The position numbers and the translations under genes were made by a program. This document shows, in pieces, positions 48,626-59,402 of a DNA stretch of 64,000 bases. Positions within the stretch are counted from its first letter, which is position 1, and each line of letters starts with the position of its first letter. This DNA is from Halomonas sp. YLGW01 (lineage in GTDB: Bacteria > Pseudomonadota > Gammaproteobacteria > Pseudomonadales > Halomonadaceae), in contig NZ_CP062005.1 in the NCBI RefSeq assembly GCF_014840935.1, positions 3,348,001 through 3,412,000 on the forward strand. Direction: 5' to 3'. The notes under the pieces are model-generated. The model searched no databases and had not been told where the DNA came from. It saw nothing but the letters and a program-made list of their open reading frames with translations.

Positions 48626-49999
48626 ATGAATACGCCAGCTCTCGTTTCATCCGATGAGATTCGCGATCGCTTCTCGACGGCCATGTCGGCCATGTACCAG
48701 GCCGAGGTGCCCCAGTACGAGACCCTGCTCGAGCTGGTGGCGCAGGTGAATCGCGAGACTCTCGAGCGCAACACGGTGCTCGCTGAGCGACTTGCGGCCC
48801 ATGACGGGCTTGATCGCCTCGGCGTCGAGCGCCACGGCGCCATTCGGGTCGGCACCCCGGCGGAGCTTGCCATGCTGCGCCGGCTGTTCGCGGTGATGGG
48901 CATGCACCCGGTCGGATACTACGATCTCTCCCAGGCCGGAGTGCCGGTGCATTCCACCGCCTTTCGCCCCGTCGATGAAGCGGCGCTTTCCCGCAACCCC
49001 TTCCGGGTCTTCACCTCGCTGCTGCGCCTGGAACTGATCGAGAGCCCGGCACTTCGTGAGCGTGCCGCGGCGATACTCGCCGAGCGCGACATCTTCACCG
49101 CCAACGCTCGGGAGCTGATCGCGCTCAGCGAATCCCAGGGCGGTCTCAGCGACGCCCAGGCGGACCGCTTCGTCACCGAGGCGCTGGAGACCTTCCGCTG
49201 GCACCGAGACGCCACCGTGGATCTCCCCACCTACGAGGCGCTGCACGCCGAGCACCGGCTGATCGCCGACGTGGTCTGCTTCCGCGGCCCGCACATAAAT
49301 CACCTGACCCCGCGCACCCTGGACATCGACGAGGTCCAGAAACGCATGTCGGCGGCCGGCATGACCCCCAAGGAGGTCATCGAGGGGCCGCCCCGTCGCG
49401 ACTGCCCAATCCTGCTGCGCCAGACCAGCTTCAAGGCGCTGGAGGAGCCGACACGCTTTCAGGGCGAGCGCCAGGGCACCCACACGGCCCGCTTCGGCGA
49501 GATCGAGCAGCGGGGTGTGGCACTGACCGGCAAGGGGCGAGCACTCTATGATCGCCTGCTCGATGCCTCACGGGACAATACTCAGGGACTCTCCCACGAG
49601 GCGCACCAGCAAGCACTGGCCAAGGCCTTCGCCGATTTCCCCGATGACGAGGCCGAGCTGCGCCGCCGGGGCCTGGCTTTCTTCGAGTACCGGCTCACCG
49701 ACGCCGGACGTGCGGCCGATGCCGGCATGGAGACGGACCTGGAGGCGCTGATCGAACAGGGGCTGGTCGAGGCGCGGCCGATCACCTATGAGGACTTCCT
49801 GCCGGTCAGCGCGGCGGGCATCTTTCAGTCTAACCTCGGTGGGACACAGAACGACGCCTATGCCGGCCATGCCAACCGCGAGGCCTTCGAGTCGGCGCTG
49901 GGGGCCGCCGTTACCGATGAACTCGCGCTCTACGCCGAGCGCGAGGCCGCCTCGAAGGCCAGGGTCTTCAAGACCCTGGCCCGCACCAACACAGACTGA
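48626..49999 (+). CDS. hglS: 2-oxoadipate dioxygenase/decarboxylase (HglS, DUF1338/VOC superfamily)
   Basis: 457 aa from ATG 48626 (CAGGAGG upstream). His70 (VERHGAIR), His226 (GPHINHLTPR) and Glu294 (GEIEQRG) fall at the same positions as the metal ligands I recall for Pseudomonas putida HglS. The Fe(II) enzyme converts 2-oxoadipate to D-2-hydroxyglutarate in D-lysine catabolism. Other D-lysine pathway genes are not in the window. The LysR gene is divergent. Older annotations call it YdcJ or VOC-family protein. Confidence 0.87.
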   Translation: MNTPALVSSDEIRDRFSTAMSAMYQAEVPQYETLLELVAQVNRETLERNTVLAERLAAHDGLDRLGVERHGAIRVGTPAELAMLRRLFAVMGMHPVGYYDLSQAGVPVHSTAFRPVDEAALSRNPFRVFTSLLRLELIESPALRERAAAILAERDIFTANARELIALSESQGGLSDAQADRFVTEALETFRWHRDATVDLPTYEALHAEHRLIADVVCFRGPHINHLTPRTLDIDEVQKRMSAAGMTPKEVIEGPPRRDCPILLRQTSFKALEEPTRFQGERQGTHTARFGEIEQRGVALTGKGRALYDRLLDASRDNTQGLSHEAHQQALAKAFADFPDDEAELRRRGLAFFEYRLTDAGRAADAGMETDLEALIEQGLVEARPITYEDFLPVSAAGIFQSNLGGTQNDAYAGHANREAFESALGAAVTDELALYAEREAASKARVFKTLARTNTD

Positions 50000-50195
50000 G
50001 GAAGGGAGAGGGAAAGAGGAAGGTGGGATGGCACAGGAGGTTCACCCCACCGGGTGTGGGATGAGAATAAAGTTTCATCCTTACCTGTTGGGTACCGGGA
50101 TATAGAATCACCTGTGGACGTAACCACGAAGTCAACAGAAGGTAATTTCCATGACGCATCGAATCATCAGAGAATAAACAGCTACACATCTAGAG

Positions 50196-52763
50196 TTAGG
50201 GCGGAAGGATGCCAGGCAATTTCAGTAATGCATCAAGTGGCATGGGCTTGGAAAAATAGAATCCTTGCAGCAGGTCACAGTTGCGACGCTCCAAGTCTTG
50301 TTGCTGTGCAACCGTCTCGATGCCTTCAGCGACCACGACTAGATCCAGGTGGTGCGCCATAGTAATGACGCCTTGCACGATGGCGGCATTGCGTGGACTT
50401 TCCAAGACGTCCTGAATAAAAGTGCGATCCAGTTTAACCTTGTGAATCGGCAAGTCGCGAAGATAACTGAGACTAGAAAAACCGGTCCCGAAATCATCGA
50501 GTGCGATGGTGATTCCAATTGCACGCAGCTCTTCGATCACGCCTATGGCCTGTGAGCCCCCGTCCATCAGGATGCTTTCAGTGATCTCCAGCTCGAGTAG
50601 CTCTGCAGGTAAGCCAGTCTCTTCCAGGGTGGTAACGACCTCTCTTAAGAAGCCGTCGCGATGGAACTGCAGCGATGAGATATTGACTGCGATCGGATAG
50701 GTTCGCTCCCCCCTGTGCAATCGATCCGCCAGTTGTTGGCAGGCTTGTCGAAGCACCCAGTGCCCCAAGGCAATGATCTGGCCCGTTTGTTCGGCAAGCG
50801 GAATGAACACCCCGGGGGAGATCATCCCGCGCTGGGGGTGATGCCAACGTAGTAAGACTTCAGTATTGCGAATCCTTCCACTACTGGCGTCGACCACTGG
50901 TTGGTAGTAGAGCTCAAGCTGATTGTGCCGCAAGGCTTGTTGCAATTCATGCCGAAGTAGCAGCTGATCTCGCGTCGTCTTCTCTACGCGTGGTGTGTAC
51001 CACTGCCAGGTATGACGTCCCTGGCGTTTGGCTTCAACCATGGCCAGGTCGGCCCGCTGAAGCAGTTGATGGGGTGAGTGGACGGTGTTGTCGTCGTAGG
51101 CGACCCCTAGGCTTGCGCTGATGTACAGCACATTCTCGTCGAACTCGAAAGGTGCATCAAACAGTTGGAGCACCTGCTCCGCGATATTGATGATCGTTTG
51201 GTCGTCTTGTAGCTCCGGCATCAGCAGGACGAACTCATCACCCGTGATGCGAGCCAGGGTGTGATCTGGGCCGAGCAACTGACGAAGCCGGCTCGCCACC
51301 GCAACCAATAGCCGGTTGCCGACAACGTGGCCCAAGGCTTCATTGATCCCCCGTAGCCCATCCAGGTCGAGATACATCAGCGTCAATAACCCTTGGCGCT
51401 GCTCCTGATGGTCGTGGAACGCCTTGGTGAGATGGCCCTCTAGAGCATTTCGATTGGGTAAACCAGTGAGCTGATCGTGAGTGGCCTGATAGGCAATTTG
51501 AGCCTCTTGCTGGCGTTGTTGCGTGATGTCTTCTTGGGTGCCGATGAAGTGGGTGCACTGTCCATCGGCATCCATGACAGGACTGATGCGCAGACGATTC
51601 CAGAAAGGCGTTCCATCCTGGTGATAATTGAGCAACGTGATCTGCACACCTTCACGGGCCTCGATTGCCGTGCGAATCTTCGTGACGGCATCAGGATCCG
51701 TTTCTTCGCCCTGCAGAAAGCGACAATTTAAGCCAAGAACCTGATCTTGGGAGTAGCCAGTGATACGGCAGAAGGCCTCATTGACGTAGACCAGTGGCAT
51801 GCCGGACTGGCGCGCATCGGCCATGACGACCCCGACGGGAGTGGCCTCGATACCACGTTCCAGAAGCTTCAGTTCCGCTTCCTGACGCTTGCGCATGGTG
51901 ATGTCATGACAAATGGCATATACACCGACAACACCTGCATCCGTGGTCACAGGGAAGCTGGTCACTGTCAGCTGTCGGGTGCGCCCACCGGCGTGGCGAC
52001 CAAGCATTTCTTGTTGCTGCGCTTCGCCATTTAAAGCCGCTTCGAAGGTAGCCTTTGCTTTTACATGGCAGCTGGGATCGAGCAAGTCCAAGAAATGGCG
52101 ACCGACTAACGTGTCCTCGGCATAGCCGGTGAGGCTCTCCAGTGCCCGGTTAGCCTGCTGTAAGCGGCCATCCAGGCTGAACTTATAGACCCCATCCGGA
52201 TGATTGGTGAACAATGACGTATGCCACGCCGTCAGGCTATTTAATTCCTGAGTGTCCTGGTCTCGAATGATGGCTAGAGCCGCCAGTGATGCGGCTTTTT
52301 TCAGGGTGTTTTGGCTAGCAGGAGACGGCTCTGCCGGGTGACGGTAATAGGTAGCGAAAGTGCCCAGCAGCTGCCCTTCGCGTGTCAGGATGGGCATCGA
52401 CCAGCAAGCGCGTAGGCCCTCTAACCGGGCGGCGGCACGGAAGGCTTCCCAGTAGGTATCCGTCATAATATCTTCGGATATGACCATCTGGCGTAAGAAG
52501 GCCGCCGTTCCGCAGGTGCCAACGCCATCACCGATCTCGAGGCCTTGCATGGCCTTAAAGTAACGTGACGAGAACTGGGAGCCGGCAATCATGCTTAACG
52601 TCTTGCGTTTTGGCTCATAGTGCATGATGGACACTAGCGCGTCCGAGAGCAGGTGGCCTGCCCAATATGTGATCGCCTCGAGTACCTCCTCGAGTGGCGC
52701 CTCGTGCGCAATCATGTCATGAATTTTCTGCTGGTCTTCCAGTAGAGAAATATCGTGAGCCAT
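50196..52763 (-). CDS. GAF-PAS-LOV-GGDEF-EAL protein, putative blue-light-regulated c-di-GMP enzyme
   Basis: 855 aa, soluble. Domains: GAF (about 15-170), PAS (180-290), LOV (302-415), GGDEF (425-585), EAL (600-850). The LOV core GLNCRFLQGEETDP has photoactive Cys347, and the flavin-binding Asn379, Asn389 and Gln410 are all present, as in Bacillus YtvA. The cyclase site reads TGDEF (507-511) without an RxxD I-site, and the phosphodiesterase site reads EVLLRW (Glu635) with DDFGTGFSS and KLDRTFI intact, so net c-di-GMP hydrolysis is more likely. No photobiology genes are adjacent. AT-richer than the flanking core genes. Confidence 0.93.
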   Translation of the reverse strand: MAHDISLLEDQQKIHDMIAHEAPLEEVLEAITYWAGHLLSDALVSIMHYEPKRKTLSMIAGSQFSSRYFKAMQGLEIGDGVGTCGTAAFLRQMVISEDIMTDTYWEAFRAAARLEGLRACWSMPILTREGQLLGTFATYYRHPAEPSPASQNTLKKAASLAALAIIRDQDTQELNSLTAWHTSLFTNHPDGVYKFSLDGRLQQANRALESLTGYAEDTLVGRHFLDLLDPSCHVKAKATFEAALNGEAQQQEMLGRHAGGRTRQLTVTSFPVTTDAGVVGVYAICHDITMRKRQEAELKLLERGIEATPVGVVMADARQSGMPLVYVNEAFCRITGYSQDQVLGLNCRFLQGEETDPDAVTKIRTAIEAREGVQITLLNYHQDGTPFWNRLRISPVMDADGQCTHFIGTQEDITQQRQQEAQIAYQATHDQLTGLPNRNALEGHLTKAFHDHQEQRQGLLTLMYLDLDGLRGINEALGHVVGNRLLVAVASRLRQLLGPDHTLARITGDEFVLLMPELQDDQTIINIAEQVLQLFDAPFEFDENVLYISASLGVAYDDNTVHSPHQLLQRADLAMVEAKRQGRHTWQWYTPRVEKTTRDQLLLRHELQQALRHNQLELYYQPVVDASSGRIRNTEVLLRWHHPQRGMISPGVFIPLAEQTGQIIALGHWVLRQACQQLADRLHRGERTYPIAVNISSLQFHRDGFLREVVTTLEETGLPAELLELEITESILMDGGSQAIGVIEELRAIGITIALDDFGTGFSSLSYLRDLPIHKVKLDRTFIQDVLESPRNAAIVQGVITMAHHLDLVVVAEGIETVAQQQDLERRNCDLLQGFYFSKPMPLDALLKLPGILPP

Positions 52764-52852
52764 AGAGTGATGCCTAGCTTACCTACCTAAACGTGGGCAA
52801 GCTCTTTAAGGAAGGGCGACACCGAGCATCGTCATATCGCAAGACGAAAGTA

Positions 52853-53872
52853 TTAGGTGATGTCGTGGCGGCGTGCTTTCTTTTGCTCGTACATGGCCGC
52901 ATCGCACAACGATAGTAGCATCGCTGCGTCATGCTGTTCCGGTTTGGCGGTGATCGTTCCCACACTCGCGCCAGAGTAGTCGATGATGTCGTCGCAGATG
53001 TGAAACTGCCCGGCTGTGAGCTCTTCCAGATACTGCCGGAAGGCTTGTTCGCTGGTGTCTGTGTGGCTTTCCCGTACGACCACAAACTCATCGCCGCCAT
53101 AGCGTGCGATCAGATCATCCTTGCGGCAGTGTCGGGTCAGCTGCTGGGCCAATTCGATCAAAAATCGGTCACCGGCGTCATGGCCATGACGGTCGTTGAT
53201 GGCCTTGAAGCCATCCAGGTCAATAAAGGCGACATATAAATGTTGCCCATTGAGCGCCGCGTGCTGAAGGCGCGCCTCCAGTCCCTGTACCAAGGCTCGA
53301 CGATTGGCAATCCCGGTCAACGGATCGGTATTGGCGTGGTGCGCCAGGATGCGGTTTTCAGTGGTCACTAGCTGAAGCAGCCGCTCACTCTCAAGGTAAC
53401 GTGAGATCAGCTGAGTAAACAGCGACATATAGTGAATCACCTCAGGCGACAGCGTGACCTGTTCGTCACTGGCGGCACACAAGGTGCCATACAAAGTGCT
53501 GTCGAGGAGGTAAACCGGTTCACTGAGATAGGTGCATAGCCCGAGCTCACGGGCAGCCATAGAGTCTCCCCAGTGCGTTGCCACGTCTTGGCTGTAGCGG
53601 CGACCTTCCAGGATGGCGCGGCGGCATAGTGTGTCACACCACGGCACTGAGAGACCCTCCGGGATAATCAGGTTACCGATATTGCGGGCATACACCACCG
53701 TTTGTACCTGCCTCTCTTCGTCGATCAGAGTGAAGTAGGTCGAGCTTAGCCCTGTGATGTCCGCTAACAAGTCGAGCAGGGGATAGATCAGCGCTTCCAG
53801 TTTTTCGCTTGGCGCTGGCGTGCCTGCCAGGCAATCCAGCAAAGCGGTGGTTTTAGCGTCAGCTTGGGGCAT
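52853..53872 (-). CDS. GAF-like sensor with GGDEF diguanylate cyclase domain
   Basis: 339 aa from ATG 53872 (an upstream Met at 53911 lacks a ribosome site). Residues ~25-165 form a GAF-like sensor with several Cys (C79, C83, C113, C132). The GGDEF domain has NTDPLTGIANRRA, FIDLDGFKAINDRHGHDAGD, I-site RKDD (250-253) and an intact YGGDEF (259-263), so it should make c-di-GMP with product inhibition. It lies 89 bp upstream of the LOV gene on the same strand. Cytoplasmic. Lower GC than the core genes. Confidence 0.92.
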   Translation of the reverse strand: MPQADAKTTALLDCLAGTPAPSEKLEALIYPLLDLLADITGLSSTYFTLIDEERQVQTVVYARNIGNLIIPEGLSVPWCDTLCRRAILEGRRYSQDVATHWGDSMAARELGLCTYLSEPVYLLDSTLYGTLCAASDEQVTLSPEVIHYMSLFTQLISRYLESERLLQLVTTENRILAHHANTDPLTGIANRRALVQGLEARLQHAALNGQHLYVAFIDLDGFKAINDRHGHDAGDRFLIELAQQLTRHCRKDDLIARYGGDEFVVVRESHTDTSEQAFRQYLEELTAGQFHICDDIIDYSGASVGTITAKPEQHDAAMLLSLCDAAMYEQKKARRHDIT

Positions 53873-54025
53873 GGGAAGATTCCATTGCTTCCTCCAGGAA
53901 AAACCGACCATAGCATAATGGACTGCTTGTCAATAAAACGTATGTTTCATACTTTATATTCAGATGTAGGGTCCCGGATAAAAAATCTATAGCCAGATCA
54001 CACTTGGCAGCTATTTCAATGCATT

Positions 54026-55768
54026 CTACATCTTCAGAACCTTCACCCCGTAGGTAGAGGGACTGACTATGTCTTCGAGCTTACCGATCTGTGCGAAATC
54101 ACTTTGGGTGATTACGCTGCTGATGTTGGTGTCGGGAAAACGCAAGTTTTTGATGATATGCACCTGGGTCGGCATGCCCTTTCGGTCAATGTCCATTACC
54201 CAAGCGAGAAAGCCTCCCGAGAACTTGGCCAGGCTGCCGATTGGGTAGAGCCCATAGGTTTGGATGTACTCCACTAACACCGTCTTATCATAGGCAGCGC
54301 TCGCCCCATGGACCATGCGGTAGGCGTCTAGCGGCGAGCGAGGCGGCGCACCGTTTCGCACATTGCGTAGTTTATTGACCACTTTGATGACAGAGACCAG
54401 GCGAACCAGGGCTGAGAGCTGCCTACCGTGCTTGCCCGCAGGGTAGCCAGAACCGTCCAAACGCTCGTTGGCCTGTTCGATCACGGCGCGACAGATGGGA
54501 CTGGGGGACCAGTCAAGCCCCTGCAACTTATGGCACAACACGGCCACGTGACCCTTGAGGATTTCCTTCTGCCCAGGGTTCATGTTGACCTTGAGTGACG
54601 GGATTTTCGGGCCGACCAGCAGCGGCTTGCCAAGGGTATGCATCAGGGCTCCCAGCACGGCTTCACGCACCCTGGGGTCGTATGGGTCACGCGCTAGCAG
54701 CATGTCGGCCAGCTGGCCTGCTACCTGCACTGCGTGGCGGACCCAATCCGGTTCGTCGCGCAAAGAGGAGAGGGCGTAGAGAAAGGCCTTACGGTCCTGC
54801 TCCACCAGGTGGCGCAGAGTGTCGACGCAATCGTAGAAGAGCTGCTCGGGGAACAGATCACGGGTTTTGATGTACATCAGCCCCACCTGAAGCTGGTGGG
54901 CAAGGTCCATCACACCGCGTTCCATGGGCGATTGGCGGGCGCGCTTCGCTCGCGCCTGGGTTTCACGCTGCCGGATCTTCTTCTCCTTGTTTCCGGGGAT
55001 GAAGAGCGGGGAGTGGTGGTCCAGTTTGTTGTTGCTCCCTGTACGATAGGCCGCTTCTTTTTCCGACTCGGCCACATAGCGGAACAAGGTCTCTGACTGA
55101 AGCGTGTTCAGGTTGATGAACTGAATACCGGCCGCGGCATAGCCGTGATTGCCGAAGGGACGAATGTGACGAACCTTACCCTCGGCGAAGAACCGTTCTC
55201 CATTGGGAAACTCGATGGTGATACCGGGGATATGCTGATCAACGTTGATCGCCACACTTTCGGCCAAGTCTATATCCACCATGCACCCTCCCACCGACAG
55301 GTTGCGTAGCCGTGCCGGCATATTGAGCTCGTGAAGGTAGACTTCGATGCTGACCCTTGCATGCATCCCAAGGAGAAAAGGGATGCGGATTGCCCCTCGT
55401 TGCTCGGGCACGAATACCGACTCCGGGAGCTGGCAATCTAGGTGATAAAGCGAACTGTCGATCTTGAGCAGCTTGGTGGGGACATTGCTGAGGCTGTAGG
55501 TTTCGCGCTCCATGATCTGGTTGCTCTTGATAGCTTCCAGATCGAAGTTGATTCCGCCATTGGTCAGATATTGCTCGATGTCAGAACCAGCGTATGCCAC
55601 TTCCAGTACCAGCTGCCCGCTACTCAGATCGAGATGGTGCACCTCTGCCCTCAACGGATAGGCCATGTCCTTCGCATATACTGACACCTCATGGGTGTGT
55701 TGCAGCAGTGAGTGAATCACTGCTGCCGAAGGGTTGGAGGACTGAGCCGGAATAGCCAAATTAATCAC
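54026..55768 (-). CDS. PilZ protein fused to a degenerate HD-GYP-like domain
   Basis: 580 aa. N-terminal YcgR-like part (1-115), PilZ domain (120-240) with an intact c-di-GMP motif Arg124-x3-Arg128 and Asn156-x-Ser158-x2-Gly161, a basic linker (260-285), then an HD-GYP-like helical domain (290-530). The HD pair is lost (MHTLGK, Thr378) and HHExxDGxGYP reads ANERLDGSGYP, so phosphodiesterase activity is doubtful while c-di-GMP binding is likely. The start is GTG 55768; a TTG at 55759 has a better ribosome site (AGGTGA). Probably a c-di-GMP effector or scaffold; partner unknown. Confidence 0.88.
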   Translation of the reverse strand: MINLAIPAQSSNPSAAVIHSLLQHTHEVSVYAKDMAYPLRAEVHHLDLSSGQLVLEVAYAGSDIEQYLTNGGINFDLEAIKSNQIMERETYSLSNVPTKLLKIDSSLYHLDCQLPESVFVPEQRGAIRIPFLLGMHARVSIEVYLHELNMPARLRNLSVGGCMVDIDLAESVAINVDQHIPGITIEFPNGERFFAEGKVRHIRPFGNHGYAAAGIQFINLNTLQSETLFRYVAESEKEAAYRTGSNNKLDHHSPLFIPGNKEKKIRQRETQARAKRARQSPMERGVMDLAHQLQVGLMYIKTRDLFPEQLFYDCVDTLRHLVEQDRKAFLYALSSLRDEPDWVRHAVQVAGQLADMLLARDPYDPRVREAVLGALMHTLGKPLLVGPKIPSLKVNMNPGQKEILKGHVAVLCHKLQGLDWSPSPICRAVIEQANERLDGSGYPAGKHGRQLSALVRLVSVIKVVNKLRNVRNGAPPRSPLDAYRMVHGASAAYDKTVLVEYIQTYGLYPIGSLAKFSGGFLAWVMDIDRKGMPTQVHIIKNLRFPDTNISSVITQSDFAQIGKLEDIVSPSTYGVKVLKM

Positions 55769-55928
55769 CTGAGAATGAAAAAAACTTTCACTTATATAAG
55801 TTGCTTAAATTTATAGGCTTTTTATCACTTTGAATGTGATCAATTTGCCTAATACCGTTTGTCGGTGAGTGAGTAGGGGCTAGCTTGCTTGTTACAAGTG
55901 ACTCATTTTTTTGCATGCTAGCGGCCGC
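55769..55928 (-). promoter_or_regulatory. AT-rich leader of the PilZ gene
   Basis: 160 bp, the most AT-rich stretch of the c-di-GMP island, presumably holding the promoter of the PilZ gene. A short inverted repeat ATCAC-N7-GTGAT (55826-55842) is present. No confident -35/-10 pair can be named. Confidence 0.4.
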
Positions 55929-57896
55929 TCAGGCCGGCTGCCACTGCACGCGGTTGCGTCCCGCTTGCTTGGCGGCATATAGCCCCAGATCGGCGCGTTT
56001 GATCGCGGGTTTTAGCGAAGCCTCTCTAGCAATAACCAATGTGACACCCAGCGAGGCGGTGTAGCCTAGCATGCTGTCGTCCTTCGTATCCTGACCAACC
56101 TTGGCAGGGGTGGTGGCGACTGCCTTGCGCAGCCTCTCGGCAACCCAAAAGGCCTGCTCCCGATCAGTGTCAGGAAGCAGGATCGCGAACTCCTCGCCTC
56201 CCATGCGGCACAGTACATCGCCGTCACGTAGCATGCCGCGAGCCAAATCGGCGAAGGCTTGCAGTACCCTGTCACCCACGTCGTGGCCGTGAGTATCGTT
56301 GATGTGCTTGAAGTGGTCCAAGTCGATGGCAATCAACGATAAGGGGGCACCGCTACGCTTGGCGCGAGCGATCTCCATGGCTGCCTGGTTTTCCAGATGC
56401 CGTCGGTTGCCTAAACCGGTGAGCGGATCGGTCATGGCCTGCTTCGCCAGGGTCGCTTCCAGTCGTTTGCGTTCGGTCAGGTCGAAGACCGTGGCACGGG
56501 TGTACTTGAAGCCACGGGGGGTGATCGAGGCCGTGGCTTGAATGGCGACCGGTAAGGTGGTGCCGTCGCGGGTGACCAGCTCGCACTCCGCCGTACCTTC
56601 TTGCTGTGGCCCGAGGACCCCCTGAAAGGCGGCCCCAAAGGCCTCACGAGTGGCCGATGTCACGAAGTCCCGATAATACCGCTGGCCGATCACTTCGTCG
56701 GCGCGATAGCCCAGCCAGTCGAGTTCGGTGTGGTTCATCTTGACGATACGACCGTCGACATCCAGCGAATGATAGCCGCAGGGCGCACGTTCATAGAGGT
56801 CCCGCACCTCATTGGCGTACCGCTGAGCTTGCCGTTTTAGTATTTGCTGACGGTGACTGCTTACGGCCCAGGACACGCCTAGGAGAAGGGCAAGGACATA
56901 GAGCAAGAGCATCAGCCGCAAGGCGAGACTCTCCGTCACCAGGGCGACAATGCTTTGCTTGGGTAACAGCAGTCCCAGGTGCCAGGGGTGAGAGGACGGC
57001 AGACTCGCCACATTTTCCACCAGGCTCCGGTAATTCTGGGTTCGCATATCGAGAGTCTGCGACAGCAAGAGACGATCACTCAGGCTCGCGGGGCCCGGTT
57101 CCTCTTGGGAGAGAGACTCCCAGATATTTGGGAGGTGGGATGCAGCGGGGCGCCCGAATGGAATGACACTACTAGGTCCGGGAAGCAGCGAACGGCCGCT
57201 GGCATCGACCAGGATCAGCTGAGCGGCCTGGTCGCGGGCGATATCCTGATGGAGGGCGGCGGTCAGGTACTGCCAATCCAGGCTGAACAATAGGACGCCC
57301 TTCTTCTCCCCGCGGGTATCGAAGACGGGGGTGGCGATATCAATAACAGGAGCGAGGCCATCAGCGGTGTTTTCGTAGCTGATTTCATGGCCAGGAGGCG
57401 AGATATAGAGATCGCGAGAGTGCAGTTGCATGGCCGCCTGAAAATAGACGGCATCGGCGTGTGACATGCCCCGTGCGACCGGGGGGAGTGGCGACCCATG
57501 GTGGATACGAAAGAGCTCTTCTCCCTGTGAGTCCAGCAACACCATTTTGGTGTAGTGGGGGGCATGGATCAGCTGCGTTCGAAACTGCGCCGCGAGCTGG
57601 CGAGCTTCCCATGCGGGCGCCGGCGTGGGGTTCCCGCCGCGGGAGTCGCCCAGGTAGGAGAGGTAGCGTCTGAGCAGGGGTTGCTGCGCGATGGCCAGGA
57701 TGTCGTTGAAACTCTCGTTCATCCCTCGGCGCAGAGTGGCCTGGCCCGCCTCCAGCATCGCCTCCGCGCTGGCCTTCTCCCCGTCGAAGCGGGCATCAAG
57801 ATAGGCCTGGGAGAGCGGAAACAAGAGAGCAGTCAACAAGAGGCTCGGCACCACGACTGCCAAGACGAGTCGACTGCATAAGGTTTTTAGCGCCAT
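55929..57896 (-). CDS. Membrane diguanylate cyclase, Cache-PAS-GGDEF
   Basis: 655 aa from ATG 57896 (GGGAG upstream). Membrane helix (about 8-30), a ~290-residue periplasmic double-Cache-like sensor (32-320, with YFQAAMQLHSRDLYISPPG and IDIATPVFDTRG), second helix (325-346), PAS (365-475), and GGDEF with I-site RDGD (557-560) and intact GGEEF (566-570). Predicted to turn an extracellular small-molecule signal into c-di-GMP. Downstream of the truncated EAL gene on the same strand, which may once have been its operon partner. Confidence 0.93.
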   Translation of the reverse strand: MALKTLCSRLVLAVVVPSLLLTALLFPLSQAYLDARFDGEKASAEAMLEAGQATLRRGMNESFNDILAIAQQPLLRRYLSYLGDSRGGNPTPAPAWEARQLAAQFRTQLIHAPHYTKMVLLDSQGEELFRIHHGSPLPPVARGMSHADAVYFQAAMQLHSRDLYISPPGHEISYENTADGLAPVIDIATPVFDTRGEKKGVLLFSLDWQYLTAALHQDIARDQAAQLILVDASGRSLLPGPSSVIPFGRPAASHLPNIWESLSQEEPGPASLSDRLLLSQTLDMRTQNYRSLVENVASLPSSHPWHLGLLLPKQSIVALVTESLALRLMLLLYVLALLLGVSWAVSSHRQQILKRQAQRYANEVRDLYERAPCGYHSLDVDGRIVKMNHTELDWLGYRADEVIGQRYYRDFVTSATREAFGAAFQGVLGPQQEGTAECELVTRDGTTLPVAIQATASITPRGFKYTRATVFDLTERKRLEATLAKQAMTDPLTGLGNRRHLENQAAMEIARAKRSGAPLSLIAIDLDHFKHINDTHGHDVGDRVLQAFADLARGMLRDGDVLCRMGGEEFAILLPDTDREQAFWVAERLRKAVATTPAKVGQDTKDDSMLGYTASLGVTLVIAREASLKPAIKRADLGLYAAKQAGRNRVQWQPA

Positions 57897-58005
57897 CCAT
57901 GAGGCTCCCAAAGCGCGACACCAAGACCACCGCGTCGCTACGCGGTGCTGAATGCTTAGCATAGTAATGCGCTTTGATGGAAATTACTCTAACGGGAATG
58001 CATCG

Positions 58006-58350
58006 TTAGCCAAATGGTGGGCTACTGCTGCTTTCTTGTTCGATGACAAAGCAGTTTGGTAGCTGGTGAAATGCCTCGAGGGGCATGGGAGCGGCGAAGA
58101 GGTAGCCTTGATAGATCGCGCAGCCCAGATCCGCCAGCACCGCGAGCTGAGCCGGTGTCTCTACCCCTTCGGCAACCACCGCCAGCCCCATACTGTCGGC
58201 GAGGGCGATAATGATGACGGCGATCGGGTGCGCCTGCATCTCGCGGTTCAGGTCACGTACGAAGGCGATATTGATCTTAAGGATATCCAGTGGCAGGGAC
58301 TGCAGGTACCTCAGCGAGGAGTAGCCGGTCCCGAAGTCGTCCAGCGCAAC
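58006..58350 (-). pseudogene. Decapitated EAL-domain gene (3' fragment)
   Basis: About 114 codons encode the last third of an EAL domain: VALDDFGTGYSSLRYLQSLP, VVAEGVETPAQL and the closing QGYLFAAPMPLEAF. Everything upstream, including the EAL motif and most metal ligands, is gone: the frame enters the IS30 element and no 5' part is found beyond it. The usual K-I-D motif reads KIN. It cannot be an active phosphodiesterase. The original gene preceded the Cache-GGDEF cyclase by ~110 bp. Confidence 0.88.
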
Positions 58351-59402
58351 GCTATTGAAGGGTGCTCGGTCCACCGACGGATTTCTTGAGCACCTCGGCG
58401 CAAACTTCCAGCGGTGCGCTCCACCCCAGTGTCTTGTGCGGCCGCGTGTTCAGTGAGTCGGCGATCTCGTCGAGTTCTTCCTGACTGTAGACGGAGAGAT
58501 CCGTGCCCTTTGGCAGGTACTGCCGCAACAGCCCGTTGGTGTTACCGTTGGAACCCCGCTGCCATGGGCTATGCGGGTCAGCAAAGTAGGTCGCCGTACC
58601 GGTCTTTTGGGTGATCTCGGCATGCTTCACCATCTCTCTGCCTTGGTCGTAGGTCATGGAGAGTCGCAAGGCTCGCGGCACCTCATTGAGCTTATCGCTG
58701 AAGCCAACGGCCGCCGCCGTGGCCGTGGTGCCATCCACTTTCGCCAGAATCACAAAACGCGTAGTGCGCTCCACCAGCGTACCGACGGCAGAGCGATTGT
58801 TGGCGCCCATGATGAGATCGTCCTCCCAGTGCGGTCTTCGATCTCAGACGGCCGTATATGGATGCTGACCAGTTCGGGAATCTGCTGGCGTCGATCCTTA
58901 CCACGACTGCGTGGCCGGCACTTGCCGTTGCCCTGCCGCAAACAGGCGATGAGCTCCTTCTTGAGACTGCCACGGGGCATCATTAGAGCGCGTTGTAGAT
59001 GGCCTCATGCGAGACCTGTCGACGTGAATCGTTGGGAGTCATGCGCTTCAGTGTGCGGGCTACCTGTTCCGGTGACCAGTACTTGCGCAACAGGTAGACC
59101 ACTACCTCGAAGAGATCACCGTCAGGGTACAGCTTGGGACGCTGACGTGGCCGATGTCGCGTCAAACGAGCCCGATATCCTGCCAGGCCGGCATCCTAGC
59201 CCTTGATGGGATCGACCACGTGGCGCGCGATTTCTCTCGACACGGTGCTCGGTGCACGGCCCAGATGAATGGCGATGGACCGGATCGAATGAGTCGCTCG
59301 CATCATCATAATGGCAGCTCGGTCTTCGGCGGTGAGATGGCGGTAGCAATGGGGCATGGCAACACCGTACCTGATGGTTCATGTGTTGCGCCTGGTCATT
59401 GA
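58341..59402 (-). mobile_element. Decayed IS30-family insertion sequence
   Basis: About 1.06 kb, the size of IS30 elements. The right end carries GTTGCGCCTGGTCATTGA (59385-59402), whose complement TCAATGACCAGGCGCAAC resembles the IS30 terminal repeat. At the left end only an inner core CCAGCGCAAC (58341-58350) matches, exactly where the EAL reading frame resumes, so this end seems trimmed or recombined. The transposase is broken. The insertion, with an adjacent deletion, explains the truncated EAL gene. Boundaries are approximate. Confidence 0.75.
58352..59357 (-). pseudogene. IS30-family transposase, broken by a stop and frameshifts
   Basis: Starts at ATG 59357 (MPHCYRHLTAEDRAAIMMMR, the IS30 helix-turn-helix start) and continues in three frames. 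A TAG at 59196-59198 replaces a usual Tyr before DAGLAGYRAR; a frameshift lies near 58981-58984 (NAL/MPRGSLKKE); a small deletion near 58825-58830 shifts the frame between IEDR and WEDDLIMG. The C-terminal part keeps TYDQGREMVKH and FADPHSPWQRGSN, but the catalytic Glu of the normal NENTNG motif is Gly (NGNTNG). The element is therefore immobile on its own. Confidence 0.88.

Follow-up and report, generated by a model that had tools for sequence, protein, structure and literature searches.

A stretch of 64,000 nucleotides from the genome of Halomonas sp. YLGW01 (contig NZ_CP062005.1, positions 3,348,001 to 3,412,000; henceforth the window) encodes a GAF-PAS-LOV-GGDEF-EAL protein, P0001, at positions 50196–52763 on the minus strand. 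We propose that P0001 is a cytoplasmic blue-light receptor with hydrolysis of cyclic diguanylate (c-di-GMP) as its output, a reading to which we give a probability of roughly two in three. Its LOV domain has a complete flavin pocket, the linker behind this domain is constant in length across the family rows sampled, and all catalytic residues of the EAL domain that we tested are in place. As a clearly delimited candidate, P0001 would place c-di-GMP under direct control by blue light, in a bacterium with five LOV domains that bear the photoactive cysteine. LOV-GGDEF-EAL proteins are already known as a kind, to which P0001 adds a member; in a 2014 census, about 18% of 1390 bacterial LOV proteins carried GGDEF or GGDEF plus EAL (PMC4844311). 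The main additions made here are the likely output, the multiple LOV copies in one genome, the finding that relatives have repeatedly lost photochemical residues, and a change of the base-reading residue in a large branch of the family. A literature search joining Halomonas, LOV, blue light and c-di-GMP found nothing.

A complete LOV pocket in a multidomain protein

The original prediction held that the third sensor domain of P0001 (residues 310–415, 51519–51836; Pfam PAS_9) is a LOV domain rather than an ordinary PAS domain, and this stood up to comparison with solved structures. The domain carries the motif GLNCRFLQGEETDP at residues 344–357, with the photoactive Cys347 (codon TGT, 51723–51725) inside GLNCRFLQ, the GxNCRFLQ helix of LOV domains. 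Alignment to solved LOV domains also places the flavin-ring residues, namely the flavin-contacting Asn379 (51627–51629) and Asn389 (51597–51599) and the signal-relaying Gln410 (51534–51536). Every one of these residues lies where it had been predicted, and the four pair with identical residues in all five Protein Data Bank (PDB) alignments inspected. At E ≤ 0.001 the LOV fragment had matches to 155 different PDB sequences; the E values of the 60 best range between 1.7e-34 and 1.1e-25. The top two rows are labelled only ‘histidine kinase’ (best 1.7e-34), and the next comprise a phototropin LOV domain (9.2e-34), a ‘blue-light photoreceptor’, a ‘blue-light-activated histidine kinase’ and aureochrome; some rows carry general names such as ‘sensory box protein’. 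Further matches are 2pr5, 4r38, 3t50 and 3ulf, the flavin mononucleotide (FMN)- or riboflavin-binding LOV domains of YtvA, EL346, Brucella LOV-HK and aureochrome (PMC8694187). As a control, the neighbouring PAS domain of P0001 reached only E 4.1e-5 against the PDB, about 29 orders of magnitude worse, so we rejected the possibility that an ordinary PAS domain had been misread as LOV. Two NCBIfam models, YtvA_fam (161 bits, cut-off 250) and BluLightHisKinLov (150 bits, cut-off 450), scored below their whole-protein cut-offs. The domain also contains Arg348 and Arg364, candidates for the arginines that hold the FMN phosphate. In the LOV domain of SL2 from Synechococcus elongatus, two arginines have this function (PMC8846402). 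The flavin pocket of P0001 is complete, and its similarity to LOV domains is far beyond chance.

The predicted coordinates of the gene were correct, to which we add the strand: a single 855-amino-acid open reading frame (ORF) with an ATG start runs on the minus strand, as do all features of P0001 given here, and frame 1 of the plus strand has many stops. One open frame together with full-length alignment of relatives ruled out a pseudogene or frame artefact. The LOV domain is preceded by a GAF domain (residues 22–165, 52269–52700; Pfam GAF_2, E 1.8e-14) and the ordinary PAS domain (residues 185–293, 51885–52211; Pfam PAS_4). It is followed by a helical linker to the GGDEF domain (residues 416–426, 51486–51518; within an AlphaFold2 helix at 414–428). 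The AlphaFold2 model, built on a 69-row alignment of P0001 and relatives across which Cys120 of the GAF domain is invariant, has a mean predicted local distance difference test score of 89.6 and a predicted TM-score of 0.44, so its individual domains are reliable and their mutual arrangement is not.

Proposed coupling of light to c-di-GMP hydrolysis

The EAL phosphodiesterase domain (residues 605–840, 50244–50951; Pfam E 6e-76) has an EVL motif variant and contains Glu635, Arg639, Asn694, Glu726, Glu729, Asp756, Asp757, Lys777, Glu813 and Gln833. Conservation of these residues was assessed in 105 family rows, a non-random sample that includes P0001 and has 103 distinct rows over the tree columns. 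Glu635 and Arg639 are kept in 105 of 105 rows; Asn694, Glu726, Glu729, Asp756, Asp757 and Lys777 occur in all 104 rows having a residue there, Glu813 in 103 of 103 and Gln833 in 103 of 104. P0001 thus has the make-up of a light-regulated EAL phosphodiesterase, i.e., a LOV domain fused to GGDEF-EAL with a complete EAL site.

The GGDEF domain (residues 427–584, 51012–51485; Pfam) is non-canonical. Its motif reads TGDEF, with Thr507 (51243–51245) in place of the first Gly, and by alignment Asn483 (51315–51317) replaces the guanine-reading Asp344 of PleD. A canonical diguanylate cyclase has Asp at this position and G, A or S as the first motif residue, the set taken as active in PMC6456294. In PleD, Asp344 and Asn335 bind the guanine base, and Asp344 is reported to be essential for GGDEF activity (PMC7288161). 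Because the domain lacks both the canonical guanine-binding Asp and the first Gly, a phosphodiesterase is the most likely output, and the residues present suggest that P0001 likely hydrolyses c-di-GMP rather than making it. We regard an active GGDEF domain, which would make P0001 a light-controlled diguanylate cyclase or a bifunctional enzyme, as very improbable. Such activity would fit the retained equivalents of PleD Asn335, Asp370, Glu371, Phe372, Lys442 and Arg446, as well as the full GGDEF domain of another relative in the same genome (L003). It is opposed by the two substitutions just described and by the lack of an RxxD I-site in the P0001 GGDEF domain on inspection by eye. Moreover, the metal ligand corresponding to PleD Asp327, though kept in P0001, is lost in seven of the 63 family proteins that share Asn at position 483 (kept in 56), from which cyclase catalysis is seemingly not what selection holds.

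By sequence, the GGDEF-EAL output module is closest to PA0575/RmcA of Pseudomonas aeruginosa (PDB 5m3c, E 6e-100), a structure solved with GTP bound. The first rows from Foldseek were DosP (E 4.7e-58), which fits only domain by domain (root-mean-square deviation 19–27), and PA0575 (TM-score 0.81 by target), with the LOV-cyclase 8c05 at rank 34. The top rows of VIA-align were tied EAL or GGDEF-EAL chains including PA0575 (Z 33.8); LOV entries were absent from its best 50 rows, which EAL and GGDEF-EAL matches fill.

How might light reach the EAL domain? From Asp412 to the Leu of the DxLT motif P0001 has 21 residues, a distance that shows no length change in 105 of 105 family rows and belongs to the short-linker class of PMC10396304, which calls light action on the EAL domain in such fusions plausible. 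Given the complete pocket, blue light would form an adduct between Cys347 and the flavin; by analogy with known LOV proteins, Gln410 and the LOV β-sheet would then pass the change to the 21-residue helical linker. The linker may re-set the GGDEF-EAL dimer such that the EAL domain cleaves c-di-GMP faster in the light, a direction we adopt from SL2, which under blue light hydrolyses c-di-GMP (review PMC8846402). We predict that the GGDEF domain does not synthesize c-di-GMP and more likely binds a nucleotide and relays the signal, as in CC3396, where a degenerate GGDEF domain senses GTP and activates the EAL domain (PMC7288161). More speculatively, GAF and PAS could determine at what level light takes effect. 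The original prediction that light is integrated with other signals keeps this basis, which is limited to the presence of the two domains.

Known systems resemble P0001 in different respects. SL2 likewise places a LOV domain with photoactive Cys on GGDEF-EAL with EAL output (PMC8846402); P0001 differs in its extra GAF and PAS domains and its non-canonical GGDEF domain with Asn at the guanine reader. RprR of Ralstonia pseudosolanacearum (PMC12802281) also combines several sensory domains with LOV, GGDEF and EAL, yet has a periplasmic Cache domain, whereas P0001 has GAF and no Cache domain in Pfam. RmcA, the closest solved GGDEF-EAL by sequence, is a phosphodiesterase linked to light whose PASd domain lacks the LOV Cys (PMC8846402) that P0001 has. 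MsLadC, a LOV-diguanylate cyclase (8c05), shares the joining of LOV to GGDEF via a heptad-type linker; in contrast to P0001, with its EAL output, non-canonical GGDEF domain and linker of 21 residues, LadC makes c-di-GMP and MsLadC belongs to the 35-residue linker class (PMC10396304).

Several observations weigh against light-driven hydrolysis. In the 105 family rows, all four LOV residues are present in 73, the Cys in 85 and the Gln in 78; rows without the Cys (20) or without the Gln (27) retain the EAL site, which indicates that parts of the family can do without light sensing. On a quick tree (simple model, midpoint root), at least five changes between Cys and not-Cys and at least nine between Gln and not-Gln are needed. 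For RprR, a protein of similar kind (Cache, PAS, LOV, GGDEF, EAL), an in vivo study found that blue light had almost no effect on transcription in culture (PMC12802281). The sign of the light effect also varies, with LadC cyclases being activated by light (PMC10396304) and a Mesorhizobium LOV-GGDEF fragment repressed (PMC9098866). Finally, P0001 and its 75% identical paralogue (L002) are 68.9% identical in the LOV domain, compared with 70.6% in PAS, 73.4% in GGDEF, 75.7% in GAF, 80.5% in EAL and 90.9% in the 11-residue linker; the LOV domain is thus the least conserved, which argues mildly against strong selection on the whole of it.

These points bear on an alternative in which the LOV domain binds flavin but chiefly provides an input that is redox-based or independent of light, the role suggested for RmcA PASd and RprR, with light being incidental. 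The repeated loss of Cys and Gln in relatives fits this alternative, as do the RprR phenotypes, which appear in the dark with little effect of light (PMC12802281), and RmcA PASd, which still affects c-di-GMP-linked behaviour although it lacks the Cys (PMC8846402). However, a pure redox sensor would not need the four LOV residues that P0001 and its 75% identical paralogue both retain, and we consider this alternative unlikely. Blue-light control of c-di-GMP, as originally predicted, remains the best prediction in view of the complete pocket, the constant linker and the EAL site with every tested residue; the near absence of a light effect in RprR stands against it.

That such control operates ‘in the organism’, a further part of the prediction, has to allow for the other LOV domains of the genome. 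A LOV query found seven places at E ≤ 1e-6 in this single-contig, 3.45 Mb genome, one of which is a second, ordinary PAS domain in L008. The remaining six LOV-like domains, five with photoactive Cys, include that of P0001, so that five further domains, four of them with the Cys, come into play. The paralogue L002 has all four LOV residues. L003 is a long protein that shares the GAF-PAS-LOV-GGDEF-EAL core, keeps the Cys and has Ile for Gln. Read by eye, all four residues are also present in L008 (LOV-PAS-GGDEF-EAL) and in a stand-alone LOV protein of 175 amino acids (L011, 4550–5077, plus strand), while L004 has Ser for Cys, His for the first Asn and Met for Gln. No BLUF domain was found in the genome in a search with a working control; a rhodopsin search of the genome gave no match, and since control genomes were equally silent this result says nothing.

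At least 158 of 275 genomes of the same taxonomic family, the window genome included, have a match at E ≤ 1e-150, a lower bound with up to three candidates scored per genome, and all seven genomes of the genus, again including the window genome, match at this threshold. Copies above 47% identity occur among these seven only in the window genome. In one clade of eight proteins (L149, L152–L156, L158 and L175), Ser replaces the LOV Cys and His the Gln, together with Tyr438 (for Arg) and Asn483 in the GGDEF domain; as the eight form a single clade, they count as a shared history rather than as repeated covariation. Natural LOV domains that lack the Gln can still signal, whereas the engineered His replacements described in that context did not (PMC9098866). 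With intact, Gln-less and Cys-less LOV domains on one conserved phosphodiesterase, the family forms a natural series that would allow a direct test of what the photoactive residues contribute.

An Asp-to-Asn change in the GGDEF domain

Position 483 is Asn in 63 of the 105 rows, Asp in 41 and Thr in one. A single branch of 63 rows (Shimodaira-Hasegawa-like approximate likelihood ratio test 100) comprises 61 Asn, one Thr and, on a long branch, one Asp; the remaining two Asn rows lie outside it, near four Asp rows. In the 63 Asn rows, the equivalents of Asn335, Glu371, Phe372, Lys442 and Arg446 are present without exception and that of Asp370 in 62, with the first Gly in only three. Across the 64 Asn and Thr rows, six of nine nucleotide-site residues fall among the 26 of 158 domain columns conserved at ≥ 98% (Fisher p 7e-4, phylogeny ignored). 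The 41 Asp rows keep most site residues equally well or better (Asp327 in 41 of 41), with Arg446, present in 31, as the main difference, so that a conserved site does not set the Asn type apart. In a background of 69 GGDEF domains from named loci, Asn occurs at this position in three, two of these without a GGDEF motif. Relatives from other families of the order have Asn (L209, L211 and L212), Ser (L210 and L213) or Asp there. In L210 (1489, plus strand) and L213 (1363, plus strand), the Ser at the base reader is accompanied by Gln or Leu at the cross-dimer position, which is nearer the Hypr pattern, but their motif is VGDEF. A 42% identical relative on an Acinetobacter soli plasmid (L206) likewise has Asn as base reader, and its LOV domain carries Tyr instead of the Cys.

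One possible explanation is that in this clade Asn (in a few members Thr or Ser) took over from Asp as base reader of the GGDEF domain, which kept the triphosphate site and now detects ATP or both purines rather than making c-di-GMP; we regard this as a long shot. For P0001, the corresponding alternative, which would add to light-driven hydrolysis rather than replace it, is that a changed base preference lets the domain sense ATP or both purines, or make another cyclic dinucleotide, and thereby gate the EAL domain, and here our expectation is slightly lower still. The 63-row branch, the Ser in two relatives of another family and the kept phosphate-binding residues agree with a change of base. 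Arg438, which by PleD numbering presumably corresponds to the guanine-favouring cross-dimer position, is retained in P0001 and replaced in 13 of the 63 Asn-type rows; its retention speaks against the change and is the reason why we do not file P0001 as Hypr. Replacement of the cross-dimer Arg favours cyclic GMP-AMP, and two Hypr enzymes retain the Arg. The position of Asp344 sets the choice of nucleotide, and Ser or Thr there is characteristic of Hypr enzymes, whose substrates are both ATP and GTP (PMC9140294, PMC6456294). One degenerate GGDEF domain, that of YybT, has ATPase activity (PMC7288161). P0001 shares with the Hypr enzymes GacA and Bd0367 a change at the Asp344 equivalent, but these have Ser or Thr with GGDEF, whereas P0001 has Asn with TGDEF plus an EAL domain. 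Asn is not among the Hypr states tested in the literature passages, TGDEF lies outside the motif set taken as active by PMC6456294, and the equal or better conservation of most site residues in Asp-type rows means that conservation alone does not single out the Asn type. Literature passages on GGDEF Asp344 gave no account of Asn at this position, though this does not prove that none exists. If base switching were true, P0001 would adjust the breakdown of c-di-GMP to both light and the nucleotide state of the cell, or might even produce a mixed dinucleotide; the Asp-to-Asn change offers a simple test of whether ‘degenerate’ GGDEF domains can sense other nucleotides.

Genomic surroundings and plasmid-borne relatives

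The genes next to P0001, likewise on the minus strand, suggest by their position a local c-di-GMP circuit. The upstream neighbour (52853–53911; Pfam: GGDEF only) is a predicted diguanylate cyclase with an intact RYGGDEF motif. We considered this 352-amino-acid protein as a fixed partner and rejected it, because the 1.5–4 kb flanks of relatives hold no homologue beyond general GGDEF similarity; the best flank match, at 111 bits, lies inside the ORF of a LOV protein. Next comes a PilZ protein with a degenerate HD domain (54026–55768), identified by Pfam, motifs and homologues. The window copy has an intact PilZ motif, RxxxR...NxSxxG, as do 16 of 17 homologues (one being cut short), and its HD aspartate is replaced by Thr, Asn or Val, as is that of each of the 15 homologues (of 17) readable at this site; from these residues it is probably a c-di-GMP receptor with a dead HD-GYP-like domain. 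It is followed by a Cache-like-PAS-GGDEF protein (55929–57962), a predicted diguanylate cyclase in which Pfam dCache scores below its cut-off.

In the flanks of the 62 other Asn-type genes (29 of 1.5 kb, 31 of up to 4 kb and two of other lengths), a PilZ-HD homologue (≥ 200 bits) occurs in 17, and either this or a homologue of the Cache-PAS-GGDEF protein (≥ 400 bits) in 24. Their varying orientation indicates linkage and not a fixed operon. A promoter scan of 49900–58700 gave no sigma-70-like sites compared with 4.3 in shuffled sequences, and we accordingly make no operon claim. Around L002 a PAS-GAF-GGDEF gene lies upstream, with no PilZ gene among the four larger ORFs scanned. HglS and LysR-type genes adjoin the gene for P0001; homologues of both lie near L152 and L155, and a LysR homologue alone near L153 and L154. 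Also on the minus strand, at 58006–58374, an ORF of 122 amino acids encodes a truncated EAL C-terminal fragment (Pfam), which by eye resembles the end of the EAL protein in L006 and looks like a remnant gene.

A wider scan of genome contigs, from which near records were possibly omitted, returned 80 loci, the best being 39% identical over nearly full length; most match the GGDEF-EAL part only. Among the matches listed, the nearest named full-length plasmid matches are from Halomonas sp. THAF12 (57%). Two plasmids of this one strain (L205 and L207) share 8,318 bp of identical DNA and the same LOV-GGDEF-EAL gene. The gene lies near a recombinase gene and is perhaps a mobile photoreceptor gene.

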